Below are positions 13,665-48,391 of a DNA stretch of 53,014 nt, one piece after another. The translations under genes and the position numbers were made by a program. The stretch's first letter is position 1, and every line of letters begins with the position of its first letter. A model generated the notes under the pieces. That model made no database searches. It was given only the letters and a program-made list of their open reading frames with translations, and was not told the origin of the DNA. The stretch lies in the NCBI GenBank assembly GCA_001784875.1, contig MFSH01000018.1, positions 13,968-66,981 of the forward strand, written 5' to 3'. The stretch is from Candidatus Moranbacteria bacterium RIFOXYB1_FULL_43_19. Lineage in GTDB: Bacteria > Patescibacteriota > Minisyncoccia > Moranbacterales > UBA11712.

Positions 13665-13919
13665 TCACCCTGTCAAATAAGACTTGAGCCTATTTTTAAT
13701 AAACATTTTACCATAATGGGTCTTTAAATACTTTTCTCGATGTGTCGCGTCTTTTTGGCTTAGGCAAGCTTCATAGTAAACAAGAATTAGCGGTCTTCTA
13801 TTTTTTGTGGATTTTACGAGACTTTTTTGGTGTTGCTCAAGTCTTAGTTTTAAATTTTTTGTATAACCAACATAATTCATGAAGTCTTTTTCACTCCTCA
13901 ATAAATAAACATAGTGCAT
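13665..13919 (-). CDS. GIY-YIG nuclease domain protein (84 aa)
   Basis: A minimal GIY-YIG domain: the H-Y-V-Y-L-L-R-S strand stands for GIY, N-Y-V-G-Y-T for YIG, followed by a conserved Arg (LKLRLEQH), a histidine and REKYLKT with the catalytic glutamate region. This size and sequence match the short stand-alone UPF0213/GIY-YIG proteins. They are DNA endonuclease-like, of unproven function, and often move between genomes. Base use is more A+T rich than the flanking genes. The gene is bounded by 13-base inverted repeats (13667-13679 and 13944-13956), the left one lying in its last codons. It sits between the WxL-like group and the giant gene, so it looks like a small inserted cassette. Confidence 0.85.
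   Translation of the reverse strand: MHYVYLLRSEKDFMNYVGYTKNLKLRLEQHQKSLVKSTKNRRPLILVYYEACLSQKDATHREKYLKTHYGKMFIKNRLKSYLTG
13667..13679. repeat. Left 13-bp inverted repeat of the GIY-YIG cassette
   Basis: ACCCTGTCAAATA here is exactly inverted as TATTTGACAGGGT at 13944-13956. The left copy overlaps the stop end of the nuclease gene. I see no target-site duplication outside the arms. Confidence 0.75.
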
Positions 13920-13961: not shown

Positions 13962-16900
13962 TCACTGCAGCGTGAATGTCATCGTCGCCTGGTCGCCTGT
14001 TTCGGCGTGGAGGGTATTGAGGTTTTCAAAGCGTGAGGTGATTTGAATGTCATAATCTCCTTCTGCATCATTACCATGGGCAATATTTTGGACAGAATCA
14101 AGCGATAAATTTCCATTGACTGATTCCGTAACTTTCCCGTCGTTGGGGCTTATGACCGTAGGAGTTGAAGTGACTGTTCCGTCGCCGCTCAACTTTATGT
14201 TTGTATTGGCCAGATTATTTTGCGCGCCCGTGAGATTGGTGGAATAAACAGTAAGATCCCACTCAGGATTACTGCCAGTATCAGTTACTGTACATTTTTC
14301 CGAAGAAAGAAAATCTTTGATATTATAATTATTTGTATCGCCTAGAGTATAGTCAGGCATTGCCGCACCAGCAGCGCAGGAAAGGCTCAAGACTATTCCG
14401 CTGCCGGAATCATCCCACCGCAGCATTCCCGGATCGGCTTCGTTCGCACCGTCGTCTCCGTCATACGACTCACCGTCATAGGTTCCGGTCGAGGCGTCGA
14501 AATCCCAGTATCCGGTATCGTCCGTTCCGGTCCGGTTCACGTTGAATTCAACGGAGGTGTCGGTCCGGTCGAAGTTGACGCCCGTGATCGTTTTCGTGCC
14601 GGAGCCGATCACTGCGCTGGCAACCGTGATGTAAGCGTCGTTTGTGGCGGCGCTGCCGACCAGATTGTCAAAATCGGTGTAGTCAAGTTTTGTCACGGTT
14701 GCACCGGATTGAATATCCAGTCCCAATGTTCCGTCCTGATGGTCAAAATTGGCATATTCAAAATTGATCGTCCCGCCGGAGAGGATCGACATTTCATATC
14801 CGCCCGAAGCTCCCTGCCGATCAACCGTCGTCCGATTTGATGAAGTTCCAATCGCGTTCAATGTATCTCCGGATTCGACAGTCACCTTGGCGGCCGGATC
14901 GATCCGCACATCGACTTGTCTCGTCACCGCCGCGTTGTCAAAATCGGCCGCGTAACTCCAGTAATCATTTGTATTCACATGATAGTCTCCCCAGATATAG
15001 AGATCCCCATCCGTATTGGCATGGTCCATGGAATAGAGAGAACCGGAGGAATCAACAGTATAGGGGGTGGTCGCATTGACGGCATTTGACTGCCACATCC
15101 GGATGTCGGTGTTGGCGCCGATCTGCAATTTGTCATAACTTTCCGCGTTTTGCGTTTTTGAACCGATGGTTTGTGAGGTCCCGTTGAGATAGAAAATCGA
15201 ACCCGTGTTCCAGGTTGTGGCGGAAGTTTCTGCGTTGGCGATCGAATATGTCCCCGTCACTTCCAATGTCCGGCTAGCAGCGAGTGCCCAGGCGGAAACA
15301 TCGGTGATGGTGAGGTCAACCGCTTTCATGTCATTCGTTTGGATTGTCCAGCCCCCGCCGGAATTGTTGAAGATGACGTCATGAAAAGGTTTTCCGGCTC
15401 CGGTCCCGCCGGCGTCGATCGTTTCCCCGGTATCGGCCGAGTCAAAAGTGACCAGCGAAGAGTTGGGCGTGAAGGTTCCGGCGTTTGACCAGCTTCCTCC
15501 GACATTGATGGCATAATTCGTCCCGGTATCGAGAGTGGAATTGGAATTCGCGATCGAAAGGTCGTTTTCAACGTCGATGGCAGCTTGCATGGTGATAGTC
15601 GCCGAAGCGGACTTGGAGATCGTAAGGTTATAGAAATCGTGGTTTTCATCCGTCCCACCCGGAGAAAGATTTCCGGAAGAGCTTTCGTCAAAGGTGACAG
15701 TCGTCGGATAGGTATCTGATTCTTGGGCAGTGAACGTTCCCCCGCTGGCCACAGTCCAGGTAGTTCCCAGATTGATGTTGGTTCCGTTTCCGGAGGTGGC
15801 TTGAGTGCCATCAAGGGTTCCGTTCACCGTGATGAAGGTGGCGATGTTGAGATCCCAGCCTTTGGTATTCAGCCGGTCTCCAGTTGATACCGTCAAGCTG
15901 TCCGCTGTCATATCCGAGCTCATATTGATCGTGGCCGGAGAGGCTCCGATCTGAACCGTGCCCATATTTTGCTTGGTGGAATTTTTGTCGTTGAAATATA
16001 CAAGGTTTGTGTCATCGCCTCCGTCGAGAATGAGAGTTCCCGATCCAGCCGTCCAGGTGCTCCCCGATTCAAGAGTGAAGTCACCCAATGCTGCCCCGTC
16101 CGTTCCGACGGTGATGTTTCCCGAACCGCCGGTGAAAGTTCCATAATTGTTCATTGTGAAGTCGCCACCGATGGTGAGCGCCGGATCATTTGTCGTCGCG
16201 TCAATTGTCACCGGTTCCGTCCCCGACCCGTCGTTTATGGTCAAATTTCCAGCCACGGTGATTCCTCCTGAAGCAAGGGTCAGCTTATTCCAATAGACAT
16301 CCGTATTGTCGGAATAGAGATAATCGATCTGCGACGACCCGCCGTTGTTGAAGCGAAATGACCATTTTGCCTTGACATCGTAATTTTCTGCACCTACGAG
16401 ATTAGTTTCTCCTAGCCAACTCCCATTATATCTATCGTAATCAATATGACCCATGAGAGATTCAACATCAGTATAAAAAACATATATGTTCGTTCCATTA
16501 ATCGCAATCGACGGCTCATATCCAGGGTTTGAATTGGTATACGTATCCCACGCGCTCCAAGCCGCGCCGTGAGCATGCCTGACAAGAGTTATATAATTTG
16601 TCGTCGCGTCTACATACACCACCCAAGTGTTGCCGGAAGAGTCAACGGCGATGGAGCATCCTGCTTGGCTCGCAGTGACATTGGGAGTCGAATCAACGTT
16701 ATACTCGTCAGGAAAAGAAGTGGCGTTGTTGGCATTGCCCCTTTCCACAGTCATCTCATCTGTCGTCTGGTCAATAACATAACTAATTTGGGGGATATCA
16801 TCTTCGTCAATCGTAATATCTGCAGATCTTATCGCCATTCCGGCTTGAGATTCAACAATAATGCGGGCATTCCATGAGCCGCCAAAACGGTTGCCATAAT

Positions 16901-19900
16901 ATAAAGTTGGAGTGGCTCCTAAACCCTCCTCTCCTTTCATTAAAATATGAGGAATATTATTGGAATCAAGTGTAATTGCTTGGGGTATATAAGTAGATTC
17001 CGTCGGATTGCCATCGTAGATGAGAGCAGGACTCCCAAAAGAAGAACCGGAAAATGTTACGTAATATGTGTCCAAAGAATCAGTTGTCTGATAAATAATA
17101 TGAATCGTATTATTCCCATCAATCGCCGCGGCGACATTTGAGTTGGCGATTGTCGCGGCGGGCGAGTTGCCAGAATCCTGTTCCGTCCAGCTTGTTCCGT
17201 CGGTTGATTTCCAAACTTCAAGATCGTCGTTTGTGTCGTCCAAAAGAACAGCGTATAAATTTCCCGAAGAATCCCTGACAATCTGTCTCGATGAAGCTTG
17301 CAGATCTCCAAAATCCGATGCGTCGTTTATTTTCACCGCCGTGCCGTTGGATTCCGTCGCCGCGCCCATCAAAGTGTAGGTCGGCGTTCCTGTTCCGGAG
17401 GGCGAGAGCTCCAAATTGTTATAGGTTTCATCTTCAATATCCACATTGGCGCTGTAGCCGGTGTATTTCACGGTCGAATTCGTTCCTTCAGTGAGCGTCC
17501 CGTCAACAATAAATGGCCGCGATGAGCCGGTTCCAGCTCCGGTGAGGGTGAGGATATCCGAAGTGATATCAAGATAGTCATCCGAACTATTCACCATGAG
17601 TGAAGTCACTTTCACATTGCTGTTTGTTGAAAGCGTAGTATTTGTTGCTGGGCCAACTGAAACCGCACCAAGGTCCTGTCCGGAAGTCAAATCAGTTATG
17701 GATTGGGAACTGCCGTTGAAAGTCATCGTCGCTGGCAGATCCGATTTGGTCCAAGTGGTGTAGTCGTTGATCGTCAAATTGCCGCCGATGTTGATGGTTG
17801 GGTCGTATGTATCCCAGCGCACCCCCAGCGTTTGCGTCCCAGAACCATCATTGACCACAAAATTGCCATTCACATTTATGGTTTGCGAACCGGCGGTGCC
17901 AAGGGTATAAGCTATTACACTCATAGATGGAAAGAGATGCAAATTATTATATGTGGTGCTTGTTATATTCATGTTGGAACCTGAGCCATAAACAACCGTT
18001 GAATTGGTAACTGTGAATGTTCCGGTAGTATGAACAAAAGCAGCACCCGAACCAGTTATTGTTAAAGTATCGTCGGTAATATCCAAAGTATCATTACTTC
18101 CTATATTAATGTTTGCAACCTTCATCGAGCTGGCCGTCGAAACAGAAGTCGTTGTGGCTGCGGTTCCGACATACACAAAGTTCAACACTTGTCCGGATGA
18201 AGAATCCGTGAAGGATTGAGAGACACCATCAAAAGTCCATCCTCCTGCTCCAGATGTGACAAAAGCTGAAGAACCAATTGTCACGTCTCCAGCCATCTTG
18301 ACCTCTGGATTTCCACTGGTGAGTATGAGATCTCCGTTAGTGATGTTGAAAGCGCCGTTCACGTCAAGGTTTCCTGAAATCGTCACATTGTCATCCGTAC
18401 CATCGGCGCCGGTGTTGTTGAGGGTAACGATATTATACTCGGCCGCATTTGTTGTGAATGTTTGGGCGGTTGAACCGTTGAAATTTATCGTACTCGTGGA
18501 AGCCGTGAATGTTCCCGCGTTTGTCCAGTTGTGGGCGATATTATAGATGCTGTTTCCGCCCGAAGTGAGAGTTCCGGTGATCGTGAGGTCATATGTCGTC
18601 AAAATTTCTGTTCCCGCGACCGTCAAGGTATCTCCTGAAAGAATATCGATTTTTTCCGTCGCATAGTCATCCCCGCCGTCAACAGTCAAAGTGAAGTTGG
18701 GATCCGTCCCACTGCAGAGGTGCATCACGTCTTCGTCGTCGCCGTTGTCATAGTTATAAGAGGCGTTGCAAAGGTCAGCGACTGTCACGCTTCGCGTTCC
18801 CGCGTCTCCGATTGAGAGGACATTCGTGTTCAAAATCATTCCAGTCACGCTTCCCGAACCGCTGTATCTCGTGATGCCGGTCGATTCCGACGCGTCCGCG
18901 ATGTCCCCGTCCCCGTCCGTCGCGAAAACAGTGACGATGCTGTTGGCTCCGGGCTGGGTGACTCCGGCAATCGACCAGCTTGTGTCCCCCTGAACTGTTC
19001 CCGTTTCTCCCTGGAGCGATCCGCCCACCGCCACCGCCACGGTCGTACCAACCCCGATATTTGAGTTTCCGGCAATGAGAAAAGGGGTTGCCCATTGCAG
19101 CATCCCCGGGTCGGCTTCGTTGGAGCCGTTGGCTCCGTCGTAGGCCTCTCCGAAGAATGTCCCGCTGGGCGGCTCAAAATACCAGTATCCGGTATCGTCC
19201 GTTCCAGTCCGGTTCACGTTGAAGTTTGCATAGCTTCCAGTGTTGTCAAAATTGGCGCCGGTGATCGTTTTGTTTCCGGTTCCGATGACCGCCGAGGCGA
19301 CAGTGATGAAAGCGTCACTTGAAGAATTGTCAATCAGGTTGTCAAAATCGGTGTAGTCAAGACTGGTGACAGCCGCGCCGGACTGGATATCAAGCCCCAG
19401 AGGGCCGTCCTGATGGTCAAAATTGGTATATTCAAAATTGATCGTCCCGCCGGAGAGGATCGACATTTCATATCCGCCCGAAGCTCCCTGCCGATCAACC
19501 GTCGTCCGATTTGATGAAGTTCCAATCGCGTTCAATGTATCTCCGGATTCGACAGTCACCTTGGCGGCCGGATCGATCCGCACGTCAACCTGGCGTTCTG
19601 AACCGCCGGAAAGCGAAGTTCCGTCAAAATCGGTGGCATAACTCCAGTGGTTGCTGACAAGAGTATGATAATCTCCCCAGATATACAGGTCGCCATCCGT
19701 GTTGGCGTGATCCCTCGAAAAAAGCGATCCGGTGGAATCGACTTCATAGGGTGTCGTCGCGTTGACCGCCCGCGAATTCCACATTCGTACATCGGTGTTC
19801 GCGCCGATCTTCAGCTTGTCATAATCTTCAGCCGATTGGGTTTTGCTCCCTACTCCATATGCAGTGCCGGAATTGAGATAAAGGATTGACCCGCTGCCCC

Positions 19901-22900
19901 AGGAGGTGGCGCCGGTCTCGGCGTCCGCGATGGAATAGGTCCCGCCGACTTCAAGCGTTCGGCCGGCCGCCAGCGTCCACCCGGAAACATTGGTGATGGC
20001 CAGATTGCCGGCCGCTTTCATATCGCTGGTCTGAATCGTCCATCCGCCGGAGCCGTTGTTGAACTGGACGCCGGAGAAAGCCTTTCCGGATCCAGTTCCG
20101 CCGGCCTCGATTGTTTTTCCGGTCGAGCCGGCGTCAAAAACGACTGTGGCCGAGCTGTGGTTGAAAGTCCCCGAGTTCGACCAGTTTCCGCCCACATTGA
20201 AATGTCCCGAGTCGGAAGCGGTATAAGTCGCGGACGAGGCAATCGTGAAATTTCCATTGATGTCCACTTCCGGATCGTTGGTGTTGGCAGTGGCCGTCAC
20301 GGCGTTTACTCCGTCCCCGACAGTCAGATTGTTGGCAACAATGGAGCCCGTTGATTCCGAGCCGAAAATGAGATTGTTCCACCAGACATCCCCGCCCGCC
20401 CCTTCGGAATAGAGGTATCCGATTCGCAGATCCCCCTGATTGTTGAAATTATACGACCATTTCGTTTTCACGTCCTGAAAGGTTCCCGCGGACAGCGCCG
20501 TTTCCCCGCTCCAGCCGCTTTCATAAACGTCATAGACAATGTCGTCCGCGTCATCAGTATAGAAAAGATAGGATTTGGCTCCTTTGAGAGCCAGGGACGG
20601 TTCGAACCCGACGCTTGAGTTGTTGTAGGTCGTCCAGCCGCTCGCCCAGCCGGAAGCGGCGTCGTGCTTCGCCAGCGAGACGTAATTGGTCGTTTGGTCG
20701 ACATAGGAAACCCAGGCGTTTCCGGCCGTGTCAAAGGCTATGTTGGCCGCCGTGTTGGACGTGGCAATGGAGGTATCCGGATTGGCTTCGGTGAAAGCGG
20801 CGGCATCGTTGTCGTCTCCAAGCTCGGCCCAGAGATTGGTGTTGTTGGAAAAAATATGGGCGATGGCCGGAACGTCGCTCGCGTTCACCGTGATGGCGCA
20901 GGAAATGAATTCATTGACATTGTCCTGATGGACTTCGAATGGACTTTTCCAGGACGCGCCGACTTTGTTCGAATAGTGGAGATAATATTTTGTCGGAGAA
21001 ATAGTATTGTACTTGAACACCACGTGCGGCTTTCCGCTTGAGTCAAGGGTGATGTCATGTCCGGTGATGGCAAAGTTGGCGTTGGACACGATGTTTTCCG
21101 GCGCGCCGAACTGGTTGGTTCCCGTGTCAAAAATGACGTATTTCAAATCTCCGCCTACGGCGTAAACGACATGCAGGTTGTCGGAACCGTCAATCGCGAC
21201 TGAAATTCCGTCCCCCTGGTCGCCGGCCGGGGAGTCGCCGGCATCCTGCTGGCTCCAGGAGGATCCGCTGGCCGAGCTCCAGACCTCGACATAGGTGCCG
21301 TCGTTCACCACCGTATAAAGCGTCCCTCCGCTGGTCCGGACCAATTGCCGTCCGGCGCCGGGAAGAGTTCCGAAGTTGGACGCGTCGTCTATTTTATAAG
21401 ACGTATTCGTGGTATCGGTTCCGGCCATTCCCAAGGTATAAGTAGGGTTGCTCCCGCCGGACGGGGAAATTTCCAAATTATGGAAAGTTTCTCCGGCGAT
21501 GTCGGTGTTCGATGTCCCGGTGAATTTCACGGTCGAATTCGTCCCTTCGTTCAAAGTTCCGCCATCTATATAAAGGGGGCGGGAAACCAGCGTGCCGGAT
21601 CCTGAAAGCGTAAGGGTATAACCGGATGAGCCAAGATTGAGGGTCGTCCCGGTATTCACGGTCGCCTGTCCCCCGACTTCCAAATTGCCCGCCAAAGTCG
21701 TCGCGGCGGTTCCGTCCAGGATGAAGTTCCCGCTGATGGAAGCCGTACCGGACTGCAAAGTTTTGGTTCCGCTGTTCGACAGAGTGAGGTTGTTGTAATT
21801 TATCGCTCCCACGGTCTGGGCCGCGCCGTTGTAATCCACGGTCGAGCCGGTGACGGTATAGGAATTTGTCCCGACGGTGAACGTGCCGCCGATTCCGATT
21901 GTGCCCGACGATGCCAAAGTCCTCGATCCGGATCCCGAGCTTGAAAGGTTGCCGTAGTCCACGGCGGAGATAGTTTGCGCCGAATCGGAGACATAGGCAA
22001 CGGTGAGATTGGTGAGCGTTTTGTTGGTTATTGTATATTGCGAGGAGAAATCCGGGGTAGCCGCCGTCCGCGTCACTTGCGCAGTTCCCGATCCGGTGAG
22101 CGTCCCGGACCCGTTCATGACCACCCCCGCCGCCGGAGTGAGAATGGCGCCCGCGCCCACCGTCAAAGTCCCGCCGGTCGAAAAATTGGTGCTTGCCGAA
22201 ACCGCCGCCGAAGAATTGGATATGTTCAAATTGTTGAAAGTCGTCGCCGTCGTCCCGTTGATCGTCTGCGCCACCGAGCCGTTCATATTCACCGTGCTCG
22301 ACGACTGTGTGAAAGCGCCGTTGTTCGTCCAGTTATGGGAAACATTATAGACGCTCTCCCCGCCCGAAGTGAGAGTTCCGGTGATCGTGAGGTCGTATGT
22401 CGTCAAAGTTTCCGTTCCGGCGATTGTCAGAGTGTTTGCGGACAGAACGTCTATTTTTTCCGCGATATAGGTTTTCAAGCACCCCTCCACGCTCAAAGTG
22501 GAAGAGGAGAAGGCGTGCATCACGTTTCCGCCGCCCGATGAAGCGCAGGTGAAATCATCCGCTTCGGCTGAAGTGACGCCGGAGCTGTTAGCGCTTCCGA
22601 TCGAAAGCGCGTTGGCGTCAAGCACCATCCCGGTCATATCGCCGTCCCCGTCCCACTTGGTGATGGCAGTGGACTGGTTGCCGGCTGTGGCCGTGTCCGT
22701 CCAGACAATCACCGAGTTTCCCGAGGCTATGTCAGCCGCGGGAATAGAGATTGACCAGTTTCCCGTGTCGGCGTCAATTGTGCCAGTGTTGGCGTGAACC
22801 GTCCCGTTGATGGCCACTTTGACCGTGTCACCGGTTCGCATGTCGGAAGCTCCGGAGATAATTTTCGGCACTGCCGACAATCTGAAAGCAAAGTCAACCA

Positions 22901-25900
22901 CATCCGTGGTCGCGGAAGCGAGCGAATCTTCCAGGAATGCTCCGCCGCCAGTCAGATCCGTCCAGGCCGTCCCGTCCGTTCCCGCTCCGTTCCAGGTGTC
23001 CGCCCACAGGTCGCTGTTCTGGTCAGCGGTGAGCAGCAAGACTTTGTCGGCATTGGGATAGTCAAAAAGGTCAACGAAACGTGTCGCGCCTCTGGATCTC
23101 GCATTAACAGTCAAATTAGCTGAAAGATCGCCGGAGCCATACGTCCACCAGCTGATATCGTCCGGGGCGGCACTGGAGGAAAAAACGGCAACGGCATTAT
23201 AAGTGGAGTTGAAATTTGTTACAGCAGCCAATTGATAGTTGGCCGCCCAAGTCTGCAGGTTCGTATCTCCATCACCATCATCGTCTATCCCGGTGCCGGT
23301 CCAGGCAAAACCTTCCGACAAGGTTGTCGCCGCCACCCCGTGAGTCTCAATGACGATCACGTCACTTGACGAACTGGGTTCCTGAAGATCCGCAAAGCCG
23401 GTTATCACATCCACCCCGGTTGCTGTTGAAATTGTCCATGTCGTTCCTGACAATTGGCCGTAAGCGACCGTGCCGGCTGACGCTAAAGGCGCGGCCACGA
23501 ACATATCTCCCGATGTTCCTTCAAAAGACACGTCAAACTTTCTGACATTCCCAGTGGTCGCGCTAGCGGTGATCGGAACGGATGGCGGTTCGTCGGCCGC
23601 GGCCGAGCCGTTCCATCGAAACGCGCTCACGTCGTCGTTGGTATCCGAATAGGCAATGCCGATCTGGTCACTGCCGGGCCTTGATGTCAATTCGACCCAC
23701 TCCACTGTTCCGCTAGTCCGGTTCAAGGCGATGGCGGCGTCATTCGCCCACGACCCGCCGGCTCCACCCGACCATTCAATTTTTCGCAGCGTATCGGCCG
23801 TGGACGTTCCATACACCAAAATGGCTTGGCCGGTGGATTGTTGTTCATAGGCGACATCAAAGTTTCTGAAGTTGGCTCCGCCTGACGCCGTGATTTGCGT
23901 CGGAGTGCCGCAAGACACTCCGCCGTCAACACCGGTGCACACCTGCGCCTTTATCACATTTCCCGTGTCTTTGGTGGCAATGATCCATTCATCATTCACG
24001 GGACTGGCGGCCACGCGGATCCAGGCTATCGCGTTTGAACCGACCGACGATGCGTTTTGTTCGCTTCCAAATCCAGTGGTGTCATCGAAGGTCTTATATT
24101 TGGGAGTGCCCGTCGTTCCGTCGGCATAAACCAGCAGCCCGCCGGAATATTGGGCGATCGGCGCATCCACCGCGATCTGCCACTGGCGTGCTTCCTCAAA
24201 AAGAATGTTCGACGAAATGCCCGTATCATGGGACGCCACCATATTTTTTTCAATAAACCGAAGCGGGCCGAGAAGATAGAATTGCGGCGATTCATCCGGC
24301 GCGTCATATTCGTATGAAAGTTCGAATTTATCTCCCTTTTTTACATCCACATCCCAGACAATATTTTTTTCACCAGAATTTTTGTCATTGGAATTTTGGA
24401 TTTCGAATTTATTTAGTGCTTCGGATTTAGGATTTAGGATTTCGAAGCTGTCGGGAACAGCTTCGCGTATCTCTCCCGTGAAATCCTGGTTGGCTGTGAT
24501 ATCAAACATCACCGGATACTTGTTTCCCGGAAAAATTCTGGTCGCTGTTGTCCGTTCCACATCGAACGCAATCGTGTTGCTCACCTCAAATTTGTCTTTG
24601 ATCGTGTGCGTTCCATTGGCTGTTTCCGCGACGAGCGTCATTTCATAGGTCCCCCATTCGCCGACTTTATACTCCGCCGCGTAGTCCGGATCGAGCGTGA
24701 ATTCTTTCGACTGACATGTTTCTTGGTTCACTTTTATCGTCCCGTCTTCAGTCGATAACTTTAGGATTTCGGATTTCGGATTTAGGATTTCCAAGCGAAG
24801 CTTGGCATCGCATACCATCGCCCCGCTCTCGTTCAAAACCGCCAGCGAAATTTTGGCCGTCTCGTCGGGAGAATAGATTGATTTGTTCACGTTGATTGCC
24901 AGCACTCCCCAGCTGAAATCCTGGGTGGAAGTGAGAACTTGCGTCCCGTCTGATGAGAGCATTTCCACCCGCAAACTGTATTTTCCCGGTTTGAAAACCC
25001 GCTCCGGCTTCACGACGGTGATTTCGGCTTTCCCGTTTTTTTCCTCAACCAGAGTGGCAATTTCTTTTTGCGGCTCCCCTGATGCGTCGAGCACCTCGGC
25101 CTTGATGACTCTCTCGCCGGCCGCGCCGGCTTCTTTCGGCCCGATCCATTTTCCCATCTTGCTCCAAAATGCCGCTGACAATTTTTTCTGCTGGCCGGAA
25201 GCCAGATTTTGGTGCTTATGAAAAAAATCGGTGAGCCGGGCGAATTCCTTTTTTGTCATTCCGATTTTTTCAAAATCCTTTTTGAGGTTTCCAAAAAAAG
25301 AGGCTGTCGCTGAAGCGCTCATCGGGCTCGGCATTCCACCAAAGGCCAGCGGAACGCCCGGGCCGGCTGTGTCAAAATAGGGAGCCTCGCTTTCATTTTG
25401 GCTTTGGCTTTCCTCTTCCCCGGCGCTCAAATTTTCCTGGCCCGAATTTTCCGGGTTGTTTGAGCTTTTCCCGCCGAAAGCTCCCGGGTTTTCAGATTCG
25501 GAAGAATTGTCTTCGCCATCGCCGCTTTGGGGAAAATCTTGGTCATCGGCGCCTGGTTCTTCGGTCAGCGCTTTTTCTTGCGGCAATATGCCCGCTTCAT
25601 CAGAAGGATCATTGTTTTCGTTTTCGCCCAGATTCAGATTTTCCAAAATTTCATTTTGGACATTTTCCAAATTGATTTCGACGGGCGACAGCGGCGGCTG
25701 GCTGTCCGGAATCTCAATGACAAATTGCGGATCCTCAGCAACCTGAAAATCTTTTCGCACGTCTTTTCCGCCAGAGGCGGATCCGCCTTGGGCGGAGAAA
25801 ATATCTTTCGCGTCAACTTCCACTCTCGGCAATTTGCTTGCTTCGTCTTTCTCTTCGGCAGTTTCGTTGGAAGATTTATTTTTTGCAAGGCCAGTGAGCT

Positions 25901-26207
25901 TGTAGCTGCCAAAATTTCCAAGCATGAAAACGATCAAAATTGAGGAGACGAGGAAGGCCCGCGACTGAAGGAAAGAAAAATTTATTTTTACCTTTTTATT
26001 TCCCTTTTTTTCGGGATGACTGTTTCCGGAAAAAATATTTTGAAAATATTTGAAGAATTTTTTTCTTTTCGAATTTCTCTGGGAAGGCAAACTCCTCCGC
26101 CAGTCCGTCAGCCGCCTATTCACGCTATCTATTTTTTTTGCCTGCCCCGTAGTTGACGCATTGGCATCATACTTCGGGGTTTTTTTATTTTCCTCCAACA
26201 TATGCAT
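13962..26207 (-). CDS. Giant membrane-anchored surface repeat protein with C-terminal WxL-like domain (4081 aa)
   Basis: One uninterrupted frame. Residues 1-83 are basic and cytoplasmic and 84-103 form a membrane helix, followed by an acidic Ser/Glu/Asn-rich linker to about 320. About 330-640 hold Ig/MG2-like strands ([22 protein letters not shown]). The rest is a long array of beta-helix type repeats ([20 protein letters not shown]) alternating with BNR/beta-propeller-like blocks ([12 protein letters not shown]) and Ig-like units. A super-repeat of roughly 1270-1560 residues occurs twice (for example [13 protein letters not shown] near 1290 and 2560; [10 protein letters not shown] near 2180 and 3740). 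The last 132 residues (3950-4081) end in a WxL-like domain with W3983-D-L and a TMTFTLQ terminus. Predicted: a long fibre held in the membrane at its N-terminus. Two low-complexity/palindrome insertions and one larger palindrome lie in frame. Adhesin or sheath function is inference. Confidence 0.85.
14731..14909. repeat. 179-bp direct repeat, copy A (in giant gene)
   Basis: Nearly identical to 19405-19583: 14754-14909 matches base for base at an offset of 4674, and one mismatch lies at 14753. Surrounding repeat sequence is clearly more diverged, including silent positions, so this tract was copied or converted recently. Confidence 0.85.
19405..19583. repeat. 179-bp direct repeat, copy B (in giant gene)
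   Basis: Partner of 14731-14909. It encodes the conserved block beginning before [12 protein letters not shown] and including [14 protein letters not shown]. Confidence 0.85.
24391..24465. repeat. GGATTT-type repeat plus palindrome inside giant gene, site 1
   Basis: GGATTTAGGATTTAGGATTT-like copies (24391-24442) run directly into the palindrome CGAAGCTGT-CGGGA-ACAGCTTCG (24443-24465). The frame is kept and the encoded protein shows [12 protein letters not shown] related composite is at 24761-24805. Confidence 0.75.
24761..24805. repeat. GGATTT-type repeat plus palindrome inside giant gene, site 2
   Basis: Four related GGATTT units (24761-24790) abut the palindrome CCAAGC-GAA-GCTTGG (24791-24805). 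The encoded [11 protein letters not shown] repeats the peptide of site 1. Confidence 0.75.
25767..25796. repeat. 30-bp GC-rich palindrome inside giant gene
   Basis: TCCGCCAGAGGCGGA and its inverted partner TCCGCCTTGGGCGGA lie head to head and encode [10 protein letters not shown] in the linker. A relative with the same order of arms lies in the 5' leader at 41194-41225. Confidence 0.75.
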
Positions 26208-27843: not shown

Positions 27844-28518
27844 CTATTCCAACAACATTTTTTCGTCGAACTTTTTCTCCCGAAAATGTTTTGCGTTTTC
27901 TTGGGCATACTTTTTATAATCACCACCACTTTTGAAATTATCAAGAATTATTTTCTTCCCTTTTCCGCAAAGGCCTTTTTTTGATTTCTCGATGTATTCC
28001 GGAAAACTTGACCAGAGGTAGTCTTCAGCGTGCGATATTCCGTGAATCTGTGCGTTGCAATTGACATAAGCGGAGAGATAGAGCAGATGGGAAGTAGACT
28101 TGATATGAGTTGATTTGACACCGCCCTGAAACAAAACGCCCGTACGGTCATAGCGTTTATTGAAATACATTGTATATCCAATTCCTATTCTTTGCATAAA
28201 TTTTTCTATACCGCGATCATGAGTCTGTTTTAAAATAAAATGATAGTGGTTCGGCAACAGTGAGTAACAAACAATTTCAACCAAAAGCTTCCCAAGATCC
28301 CATCTTGGGACAGCCAGAAATGTTTCTAAATCAGCGCTTGGATTTGTTGTTTTATAATCACGCCACTGTTGCATGAGATTCCCTGTCTCGAAATTCATTA
28401 GTCTCATTGACAAGAGCCAGCGTTGATAATCGGCATTATCCAGAAATATCTTGCGCTTATCGGTTCCCCGATTATATACATGGTAGAATTCTTTGTTTGC
28501 AAAAGGCACTTTTCTCAT
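27844..28518 (-). CDS. REP-associated tyrosine transposase (RAYT, Y1/IS200-like)
   Basis: 224 residues. The N-terminus EFYHVYNRGTDKRKIFLD is the typical RAYT opening; the HUH motif is in LLPNHYHFILKQ, and the catalytic tyrosine lies in GIGYTMYFNKRY. LFQGGVKS and the SAEDYLWSS-like region are also family features. RAYTs are single-copy HUH nucleases that cut and join single-stranded REP palindromes. Here three copies of one palindrome lie at the left end, the right end and inside the gene, the internal copy encoding V-P-R-W-D-L-G-K. The gene is inserted between two prepilin genes. The frame is intact and all expected motifs are present, so the enzyme may be active. Confidence 0.92.
   Translation of the reverse strand: MRKVPFANKEFYHVYNRGTDKRKIFLDNADYQRWLLSMRLMNFETGNLMQQWRDYKTTNPSADLETFLAVPRWDLGKLLVEIVCYSLLPNHYHFILKQTHDRGIEKFMQRIGIGYTMYFNKRYDRTGVLFQGGVKSTHIKSTSHLLYLSAYVNCNAQIHGISHAEDYLWSSFPEYIEKSKKGLCGKGKKIILDNFKSGGDYKKYAQENAKHFREKKFDEKMLLE
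28290..28310. repeat. RAYT palindrome, internal copy
   Basis: TCCCAAGAT-CCC-ATCTTGGGA, perfect 9-bp arms, within the RAYT coding region. It carries the same arms as the copies at 27811 and 28537. Confidence 0.85.
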
Positions 28519-47312: not shown

Positions 47313-47400
47313 AAATATAAATAATCATCCCGAAGCGATACCAAAAATTTTAATTTTTACTTTTTCATTTTAACTTTGTGTGTGCCCGGGGTGAGACTCG

Positions 47401-47427
47401 CCCCGCACTATGCAAGCAAATGCGGGG
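47401..47427. repeat. CCCCGCA palindrome copy B (in tRNA-like T-loop)
   Basis: CCCCGCA (47401-47407) and TGCGGGG (47421-47427). It interrupts the T-loop of the tRNA-Leu-like sequence. Confidence 0.75.
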
Positions 47428-47444
47428 TAAAAACTCACAACAAG

Positions 47445-47527
47445 TGCCGAAGGTGGGACTCGAACCCACATAGAGCAAGCTCCACGAGATTTTAAGTCTC
47501 GCGCGTATACCATTCCGCCACTTCGGC
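47445..47527 (-). tRNA. tRNA-Leu(UAA)
   Basis: Acceptor GCCGAAG/CTTCGGC, A discriminator, anticodon arm CGAGA-CTTAAAA-TCTCG with anticodon TAA, a long class II variable arm (GGAGCTTGCTC) and T arm GTGGG-TTCGAGT-CCCAC. No CCA encoded. Confidence 0.95.
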
Positions 47528-47550
47528 TTTTTAAATATCCCTCGTGCCTG

Positions 47551-47585
47551 CCCCGCACTTATCGCTAAGTGATATAGTGCTGGGG
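47551..47585. repeat. CCCCGCAC palindrome copy A
   Basis: CCCCGCAC (47551-47558) pairs with GTGC-T-GGGG (47577-47585), and inside CACTTA-TCGC-TAAGTG (47556-47571) forms a perfect second hairpin. Relative of copy B at 47401. Confidence 0.7.
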
Positions 47586-47619
47586 TATACCATTCCACCA
47601 CCCGGGCAAAGTAATTTTG

Positions 47620-47690
47620 AGGCCGCGCCCGGAATTGAACCGGGGTACGAGGATTTGCAGTCCCCTGCGTAGCCACTCCGCCACGCGGCC
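47620..47690 (-). tRNA. tRNA-Cys(GCA)
   Basis: Acceptor GGCCGCG/CGCGGCC with U discriminator as usual for Cys. Anticodon loop CTGCAAA gives GCA. T arm CCCGG-TTCAATT-CCGGG. No CCA encoded. Confidence 0.95.
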
Positions 47691-47728: not shown

Positions 47729-48391
47729 CTAAAACAGCGCTTCTTGTTTCTTCTTTTCTTCGAATCTATTTCTTCCATCTTTTCTCTCCCGATTTTCCCT
47801 GTTATCTAAATTATTTTCTTTGTTCTTTTCAATCGCCTCAATCACTTTCGGGATTTTTTTGAAATCCGTTTTGAGAGTTTCACGCAGGCTGCCCTGATAG
47901 AGCGCAGCGGCCGGGTGGTAGAGCACATAGAAAACCTGCTTTCCAATCTCCAGAATTTCACGGCGCATGGCTTGCCCGTGAATCTTTGAAATTTTTTGGC
48001 CCGGAAGAAATCTTTCCATCGCATGCCGACCCAGAAGGACAACCAGCTTAGGCTTGATTATTTTTATCTGTTCCATCATCCAAGGCCAGCAAGCCTTGAC
48101 TTCCTCCGGAAGCGGATCACGATTTCCCGGAGGACGGCACTTGAGGACATTTCCGATGAAAACGTCCTCGCGATTTTTTCCAATCAGAGAAAGCATTTCC
48201 TCCAGAAACTTTCCCGCTGCTCCGACAAAAGGGCGGCCTTGTTTATCTTCATTTTCTCCCGGGCCTTCGCCAATGAACATAATGTCGGCCTCGAAATTTC
48301 CTTCCCCCGGAACAACCTGCAGGCAAGTATCCCGAAGATGGCATTTCCGGCAAGCCTTTATTTTTTCTTCAAGGATTTTATAACTATTCAT
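47729..48391 (-). CDS. Family 4 uracil-DNA glycosylase (Fe-S type)
   Basis: 220 residues. Cysteines C14, C17 and further ones in NVLKCRPPGNRDP and KACWPW are placed as 4Fe-4S ligands. The active-site region is GEGPGENEDKQGRPFVG, and HPAAAL is the second catalytic motif. A Lys/Glu/Asn-rich 30-residue tail is extra. The enzyme removes uracil from DNA in base-excision repair. It starts a minus-strand group with the tRNAs downstream; the gap upstream holds an 18-bp palindrome. Confidence 0.93.
   Translation of the reverse strand: MNSYKILEEKIKACRKCHLRDTCLQVVPGEGNFEADIMFIGEGPGENEDKQGRPFVGAAGKFLEEMLSLIGKNREDVFIGNVLKCRPPGNRDPLPEEVKACWPWMMEQIKIIKPKLVVLLGRHAMERFLPGQKISKIHGQAMRREILEIGKQVFYVLYHPAAALYQGSLRETLKTDFKKIPKVIEAIEKNKENNLDNRENRERKDGRNRFEEKKKQEALF

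Follow-up and report, generated by a model that had tools for sequence, protein, structure and literature searches.

How an intact tRNA-Leu(UAA) gene comes to lie between the pieces of another tRNA-Leu gene, and whether the outer gene can still yield a tRNA, is the question raised by positions 47383-47607 (minus strand) of the window, by which we mean the whole stretch of 53,014 nucleotides analysed here. The window comes from Candidatus Moranbacteria bacterium RIFOXYB1_FULL_43_19 (G000; G numbers denote genomes and L numbers extracted loci), the assembly of which has 23 contigs, 1,005,247 bases and a completeness of 96.4%. The boundaries of the outer pieces were set with the intact gene of GW2011_GWC2_40_12 (G001, locus L091), a member of the same genus, as the reference. 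The locus consists of the following features.

47729-48391, minus strand: uracil-DNA glycosylase gene, the synteny anchor (PF03167, E 4.4e-35)
47619-47690, minus strand: tRNA-Cys(GCA), a conserved neighbour (ARAGORN); order kept in L090, L091 and other relatives
47586-47607, minus strand: 5' piece of the outer (native) tRNA-Leu(UAA), GCCCGGG..GGTATA, with the acceptor 5' strand and the D-arm to A22; identical to G001/L091
47547-47585, minus strand: 39-nt palindromic insert at the end of the D-loop (CCCC..GGGGCAGG); the intact relative has no insert, and boundaries were set by comparison
47538-47546, minus strand: outer piece CACGAGGGA, the D-stem 3' strand and anticodon-stem 5' strand; identical to G001/L091
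47528-47537, minus strand: AT-rich linker TATTTAAAAA preceding the inner tRNA (read from the sequence)
47445-47527, minus strand: inner intact tRNA-Leu(UAA) (ARAGORN, 47444-47527; Rfam RF00005, 64.6 bits)
47439-47444, minus strand: linker CTTGTT after the inner tRNA (read from the sequence)
47432-47438, minus strand: outer T-stem 5' strand and first two T-loop bases (GTGAGTT); identical to G001/L091
47401-47431, minus strand: 31-nt palindromic insert (TTTACCCC..GGGG) in the T-loop between TT and CGA; the intact relative has no insert
47383-47400, minus strand: outer 3' piece CGAGTCTCACCCCGGGCA, the remaining T-arm, acceptor 3' strand and discriminator; identical to G001/L091

The first-pass annotation had described a tRNA-Leu gene split around another tRNA-Leu, with a perfect match between the halves in the 7-bp acceptor. 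This arrangement was confirmed, all pieces being present on the minus strand and the acceptor pairing being perfect. Both palindromes that it had reported were also found, with extents that had to be revised from 47551-47585 to 47547-47585 and from 47401-47427 to 47401-47431. The linker CTTGTT may be what is left of the outer variable arm. In the window, the inner tRNA is not directly flanked by a clear inverted repeat, and an endonuclease gene is absent at this locus; many sister units have one.

A query with the uracil-DNA glycosylase gene returned four close loci, all from Candidatus Moranbacteria/Moraniibacteriota. In L090 and L091, tRNA-Cys and one intact tRNA-Leu(UAA) lie beside the glycosylase gene, and G007 likewise has an intact syntenic tRNA-Leu(UAA); no tRNA was found in L093, and L092 ends inside the glycosylase gene. 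The outer pieces of the window equal the intact gene of G001/L091 at 31/31 and 26/26 bases, and are therefore no chance match; the corresponding values were 30/31 and 23/26 for G007 and, in an ungapped comparison, 22/31 and 24/26 for L090. These sequences identify the outer halves as the native tRNA-Leu(UAA) gene of the locus. The 27 bases between CACGAGGGA and GTGAGTT, which hold the anticodon loop, the 3' anticodon stem and the variable arm, were lost in the window, and their place was taken by the inner tRNA and short linkers. The inner tRNA-Leu(UAA) differs from the native gene of G001 (80% identity over the aligned part), and a search for its donor gave best outside matches of 85-86% in G117, G118 and G003, which were not decisive. 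The outer copy looks dead. A former tRNA has decayed here at a site where relatives keep a normal leucine tRNA gene, the finding that the first-pass annotation had said would favour a plain pseudogene. This status of the outer copy does not account for the nested replacement, and 'plain pseudogene' says too little because the gene was not only broken but also replaced on the spot, and because this recurs. That the outer gene has no anticodon loop or variable arm, and that the arrangement recurs across the genome, had both gone unmentioned in the first-pass annotation.

The recurrence was evaluated on 41 intact tRNAs with their flanks, taken from 42 tRNA matches in G000. The flanks were compared with the 5' and 3' ends of one tRNA of G001 or G003 at a time, with neighbouring intact tRNAs masked, and a two-sided score of at least 10.5 was required; 205 controls made by shuffling the bases of those flanks (five per locus) reached a maximum of 10.0. 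By this test, 13 of the 41 tRNAs lie between the halves of another tRNA, and no two-sided relic was seen for the other 28. The best outer match had the same amino acid in all 13 and the same anticodon in nine (Glu, Ala, Leu CAG, Leu GAG, Leu UAA, Lys, Gly, Ser and Phe); the nests with a sister anticodon as best match were those of Thr, Pro and two Arg. The suggestion of the first-pass annotation that a tRNA gene had been destroyed and a second one nested in it is thus supported by the intact syntenic orthologues and by 12 further two-sided cases in G000. L048 holds a triple nest, in which a Leu(GAG) of the G001 type lies outermost and encloses a middle Leu(GAG), and this in turn an intact Leu(GAG). 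The tRNA-Phe of G000 has no intron and is nested in a split copy of the native tRNA-Phe; ARAGORN found tRNA-Phe genes with a long anticodon-loop intron in G001 (369 nt, L189:2076-2444) and G003 (315 nt, L211:547-861).

Nests were also seen in relatives. By eye, all 12 tRNA-bearing repeat elements collected from other genomes lie within split tRNAs of the same isotype, with varying clarity. When these 12 and five other elements were subjected to the scripted two-sided test (four shuffles per locus, maximum 10.0), 10 of the 17 scored above the shuffles and seven did not. The best match had the same amino acid in eight of the 10, the exceptions being Val(UAC) of L246, which matched Ile, and Ile(UAU) of L323, which matched Val. 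In G014 (L250), three alanine tRNAs are nested, and both outer ones are split in the anticodon loop with the ends TTCACCCC..GGGGCAAG. A Pro(CGG) cassette has a single outer gene immediately around it in G003, whereas in G000 it is enclosed by an additional proline half; we take this to mean that the cassette has moved.

Palindromes of two kinds were found, a long one of ~100 bp (CCCCGCACC..GGTGCGGGG) and a short one of ~27-40 bp, and both kinds also occur within protein genes and between genes. The word GTGCGGGG occurs 75 times in G000 as compared to 11 times for the reversed word. The long inverted-repeat pattern was present in 26 of 128 genomes of the order and in nine of 379 genomes of a phylum sample, G000 included in both counts, with no occurrence of the reversed control in either. 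As in MITE-like elements, several CCCCGCACC..GGTGCGGGG copies have terminal inverted repeats and no transposase of their own (G000 and 25 other genomes of the order). A candidate single autonomous element at G000:C8:36344-38176 was rejected, since its two motif hits belong to distinct small elements and no transposase was recognised in the DNA that separates them. Inspection by eye placed the short kind in tRNA relics at two positions, namely in the T-loop between TT and C (window, L048, L050, L246 and L260) and at the end of the D-loop (window, L048 and L049). The palindromes of the window, which had been suggested to be what destroyed the tRNA gene, are better explained as additional insertions at fixed positions in the loops than as what split the gene.

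Rickettsia palindromic elements and other small palindromic repeats are short palindromes inside genes, also in frame in protein genes. The elements described here are like them in placing short palindromes within genes, and unlike them in carrying complete tRNA genes and sitting in cognate tRNA genes. In L041 (G000:C20:9893-10362), a palindromic element lies in a protein gene, and by eye the frame seems to run through it; L034 and L035 also have palindromic elements within protein genes. The long inverted-repeat element also lies in what was identified by eye as the 16S rRNA gene of G024, where it replaces a helix tip (L172/L223, G024:C6:87934-88038), and a near copy of it occurs in G049 (L224).

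GIY-YIG genes cluster with tRNAs. The Cys-Leu(UAA) locus of G003, which corresponds to that of the window, contains a 160-aa HNH ORF together with a different tRNA-Leu(UAA). Seven GIY-YIG hits in G001 comprise one long ORF of UvrC size and six small ones, and every small gene has a tRNA no more than 125 bp away (Gln twice, Asn, Ser, Tyr and Gly). Among the five small GIY-YIG genes of G000, one lies ~50 bp from tRNA-Trp, one ~310 bp from tRNA-Arg, and three are distant from tRNAs. GIY-YIG genes passing E 1e-14 were found in 94 of 118 genomes of the order, and among the matches listed, 15 of 30 loci lie within 150 bp of a tRNA, for which the chance expectation is ~2.7% per locus assuming 45 tRNAs per Mb. 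Eighteen endonuclease-tRNA units were examined for relics with the two-sided test and four shuffles per locus. Two-sided relics of the same isotype were obtained for Tyr in L182 (score 22.5), where a GIY-YIG gene and tRNA-Tyr lie inside a split Tyr tRNA, Pro in L307 (17) and Gln in L302 (13.5), and at lower scores for Val in L298 (11) and Trp in L080 (10.5), with Gln in L314 borderline (10.0). A two-sided relic was thus seen in six of the 18 units, one of them borderline, and most units have no clear one; L292, L303, L304, L309 and L313 have only a 5' half of the same isotype, and the other units were not clear-cut.

An inverted repeat scoring at least 13 surrounds the domain in 11 of 31 GIY-YIG loci (the 30 above and that of the window), with one shuffle per locus giving a maximum of 10. 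In a second set, in which L339 repeats L313, eight of 20 loci scored at least 14, with five shuffles per locus giving a maximum of 12. Several of the ends are similar to those of the tRNA cassettes (CCCCACACCAATT in L342, CCCCCACACCAAT in L343, CCCCTCACCA in L334 and CCCCCACCA in L337), and others are not. The window itself has one such gene.

13665-13919, minus strand: small GIY-YIG ORF bounded by an inverted repeat (ACCCTGTCAAATA / TATTTGACAGGGT), a candidate palindrome-ended element with no adjoining tRNA

In L300, L305, L319, L320 and L348, the GIY-YIG genes are away from tRNAs and have on either side inverted copies of a TGTCATCCTGAACTTG-type palindrome, a type common to different genera. 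The GIY-YIG gene of L331 (G000:C9:52500-54000) has an inverted repeat of 20 bp and lies in what was identified by eye as the 5' part of the 16S rRNA gene of G000. Homologous HTH-bearing ORFs (34%) lie directly upstream of tRNA-Tyr in G000 (L078:446-1054) and of tRNA-Gly in G001 (L193:319-990), where other loci have GIY-YIG or HNH genes. They were considered as homing endonucleases and set aside, no library naming them endonucleases; a possible resemblance to LAGLIDADG proteins was not counted as evidence.

Three other explanations were weighed against replacement by a mobile element. The outer tRNA might still be functional, its halves being united by complementary palindromes and spliced or joined in trans, with the inner tRNA in an intron-like insert, much as the first-pass annotation had imagined an odd precursor joined in trans. 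The perfect outer acceptor and the strong fold of the whole 225 nt (z -3.14) are consistent with such a precursor, as are the inverted repeats around many inner tRNAs, which could pair. When the outer halves were rejoined at junctions set by the analyst, three of 11 nests (Leu GAG middle, Leu CAG and Phe) read as the cognate tRNA; however, eight of 11 were not recognised as such, and the rejoined halves of the window read as a nonsense 'tRNA-Stop' and not as tRNA-Leu. Trans-joining of the outer halves of the window is therefore unlikely, since rejoining gave a cognate tRNA in only three of 11 nests and the window is not among them. In addition, the outer copies lack anticodon or T-loop bases relative to the native genes, as that of the window lacks its anticodon, no group I intron core was found at the locus, and in the window only tRNA families reached the Rfam gathering score. 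We consider a functional outer tRNA highly improbable.

Ordinary recombination could instead have duplicated the genes, with palindromes landing by chance in the dead copies. The Arg UCU nest of L248, in which inner and outer are nearly identical apart from the acceptor, looks as a local copy would. However, tandem duplication does not repeatedly place an intact copy inside another at loop positions, and it accounts neither for the inverted repeats around the copies nor for the linkage with GIY-YIG genes, nor for one cassette sequence in different outer genes, as partly seen for Pro CGG. Duplication and decay is thus a rather unlikely account. According to a further explanation, REP-like palindromes are moved by RAYT (Y1) transposases and take tRNA genes along. 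G000 has seven Y1_Tnp genes, one of them RAYT-like in the window (28060-28281, minus strand), and the palindromic hairpins have short flanking tetranucleotides, in which we take them to resemble REPs. Yet none of the seven RAYT loci has a tRNA within ~1.5 kb, a scan for these motifs there gave isolated hits and no bounding pair, and the link to tRNAs and the inverted repeats both belong to the GIY-YIG genes. We give this explanation little credence.

We consider it probable that the native tRNA-Leu(UAA) was split by a second tRNA-Leu(UAA) as part of a wider mobile-element process in Moranbacteria in which only cognate insertions survive. Replacement of the tRNA in situ is well supported by the comparisons above, and the mobile engine behind it is probably driven by endonucleases, which would make the break. 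Palindrome-ended elements would enter conserved loops of tRNA genes, some carrying a GIY-YIG (or HNH) endonuclease and others a complete tRNA gene alone. The endonuclease-bearing units would be the active form; tRNA-only units and bare hairpins would either be moved in trans, which is how we suppose elements lacking an endonuclease to be mobilised, or be leftovers after its loss. A break in a single-copy essential tRNA gene would be survivable only if the incoming tRNA serves the same codons. The isotype match would then be the result of survival filtering: only cognate insertions survive, and therefore nesting is within the same isotype. Several rounds would nest same-isotype tRNAs in one another. 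The outer halves in the window would be relics that additionally took palindromic inserts in the D- and T-loops, and the inner tRNA is presumably the expressed copy now serving the cell. The locus, having neither an endonuclease nor clear repeats at the inner tRNA, may be a decayed or minimal case. More tentatively, these elements could form a tRNA-replacing gene drive, in which palindrome-ended elements powered by GIY-YIG or HNH endonucleases persist by carrying the tRNA that they destroy. In that event, the host would depend on the element, the tRNA set of minimal genomes would be turned over gene by gene, and repeated rounds would nest tRNAs in Russian-doll fashion.

Transfer RNA genes are usually viewed as slow and vertically inherited, and as sites where elements land harmlessly, restoring the gene as they do so. 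In the genomes described here, it appears that single-copy tRNA genes that the cell cannot do without are broken time and again, with a tRNA of the right isotype taking over from inside the broken gene. If endonucleases are responsible, this would be homing without self-splicing, in which the damage is repaid by a whole spare gene, and the reading predicts which DNA the tRNA-linked GIY-YIG proteins cut. There would be consequences for tRNA annotation, tRNA-based phylogeny and codon-usage work in Patescibacteria.

Among known systems, the mobile ORFs of fungal mitochondria appear to work most alike. As far as the available part of the source describes them, they bring a replacement gene end, for example in atp6 of Allomyces and in atp6, atp9, cox2 and nad3 of Glomus (PMC3630166). 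In both cases, an endonuclease-bearing element enters an essential gene and supplies a foreign replacement part, and the native relic stays. In the fungal case, the 3' end of a protein gene is replaced, whereas in Moranbacteria a whole tRNA gene lies inside the broken one, and the units, unlike the fungal ORFs as described there, often lack an endonuclease and lie between inverted repeats. According to the accessible parts of two other papers, phage SegB is linked to tRNAs (PMC13096335) and mycobacterial tRNA clusters contain HNH genes (PMC6582537), so that there, too, GIY-YIG or HNH genes adjoin tRNA genes whose spread they aid; those parts describe no nesting in a split cognate tRNA. In Moranbacteria, unlike in these phage and mycobacterial clusters, replacement affects individual tRNAs on the chromosome of free or episymbiotic cells. 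Archaeal split and intron-containing tRNAs, so far as the available text presents them (PMC2237900), share tRNA halves with complementary GC-rich flanks; unlike them, the outer copies here mostly lack essential bases and enclose an intact tRNA of their own kind. A search of the open-access literature, which is no proof of absence, found no paper on nested cognate tRNAs in bacteria, and the IOLA paper (PMC8155191) was rejected as a precedent, 'nested' in its available text referring to nested PCR.

The first-pass annotation had proposed counting the leucine anticodons in case one was otherwise missing. None is missing: all five (GAG, CAG, CAA, UAG and UAA) are present as intact genes in G000. 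Asn GUU, Ile GAU, Lys UUU and Ala UGC are absent from the tRNA list of G000 and present in G001, so these genes may lie within gaps of the G000 assembly. Elsewhere in the window, slightly less than one quarter of the sequence is occupied by an ORF of 4081 aa (13962-26207, minus strand).
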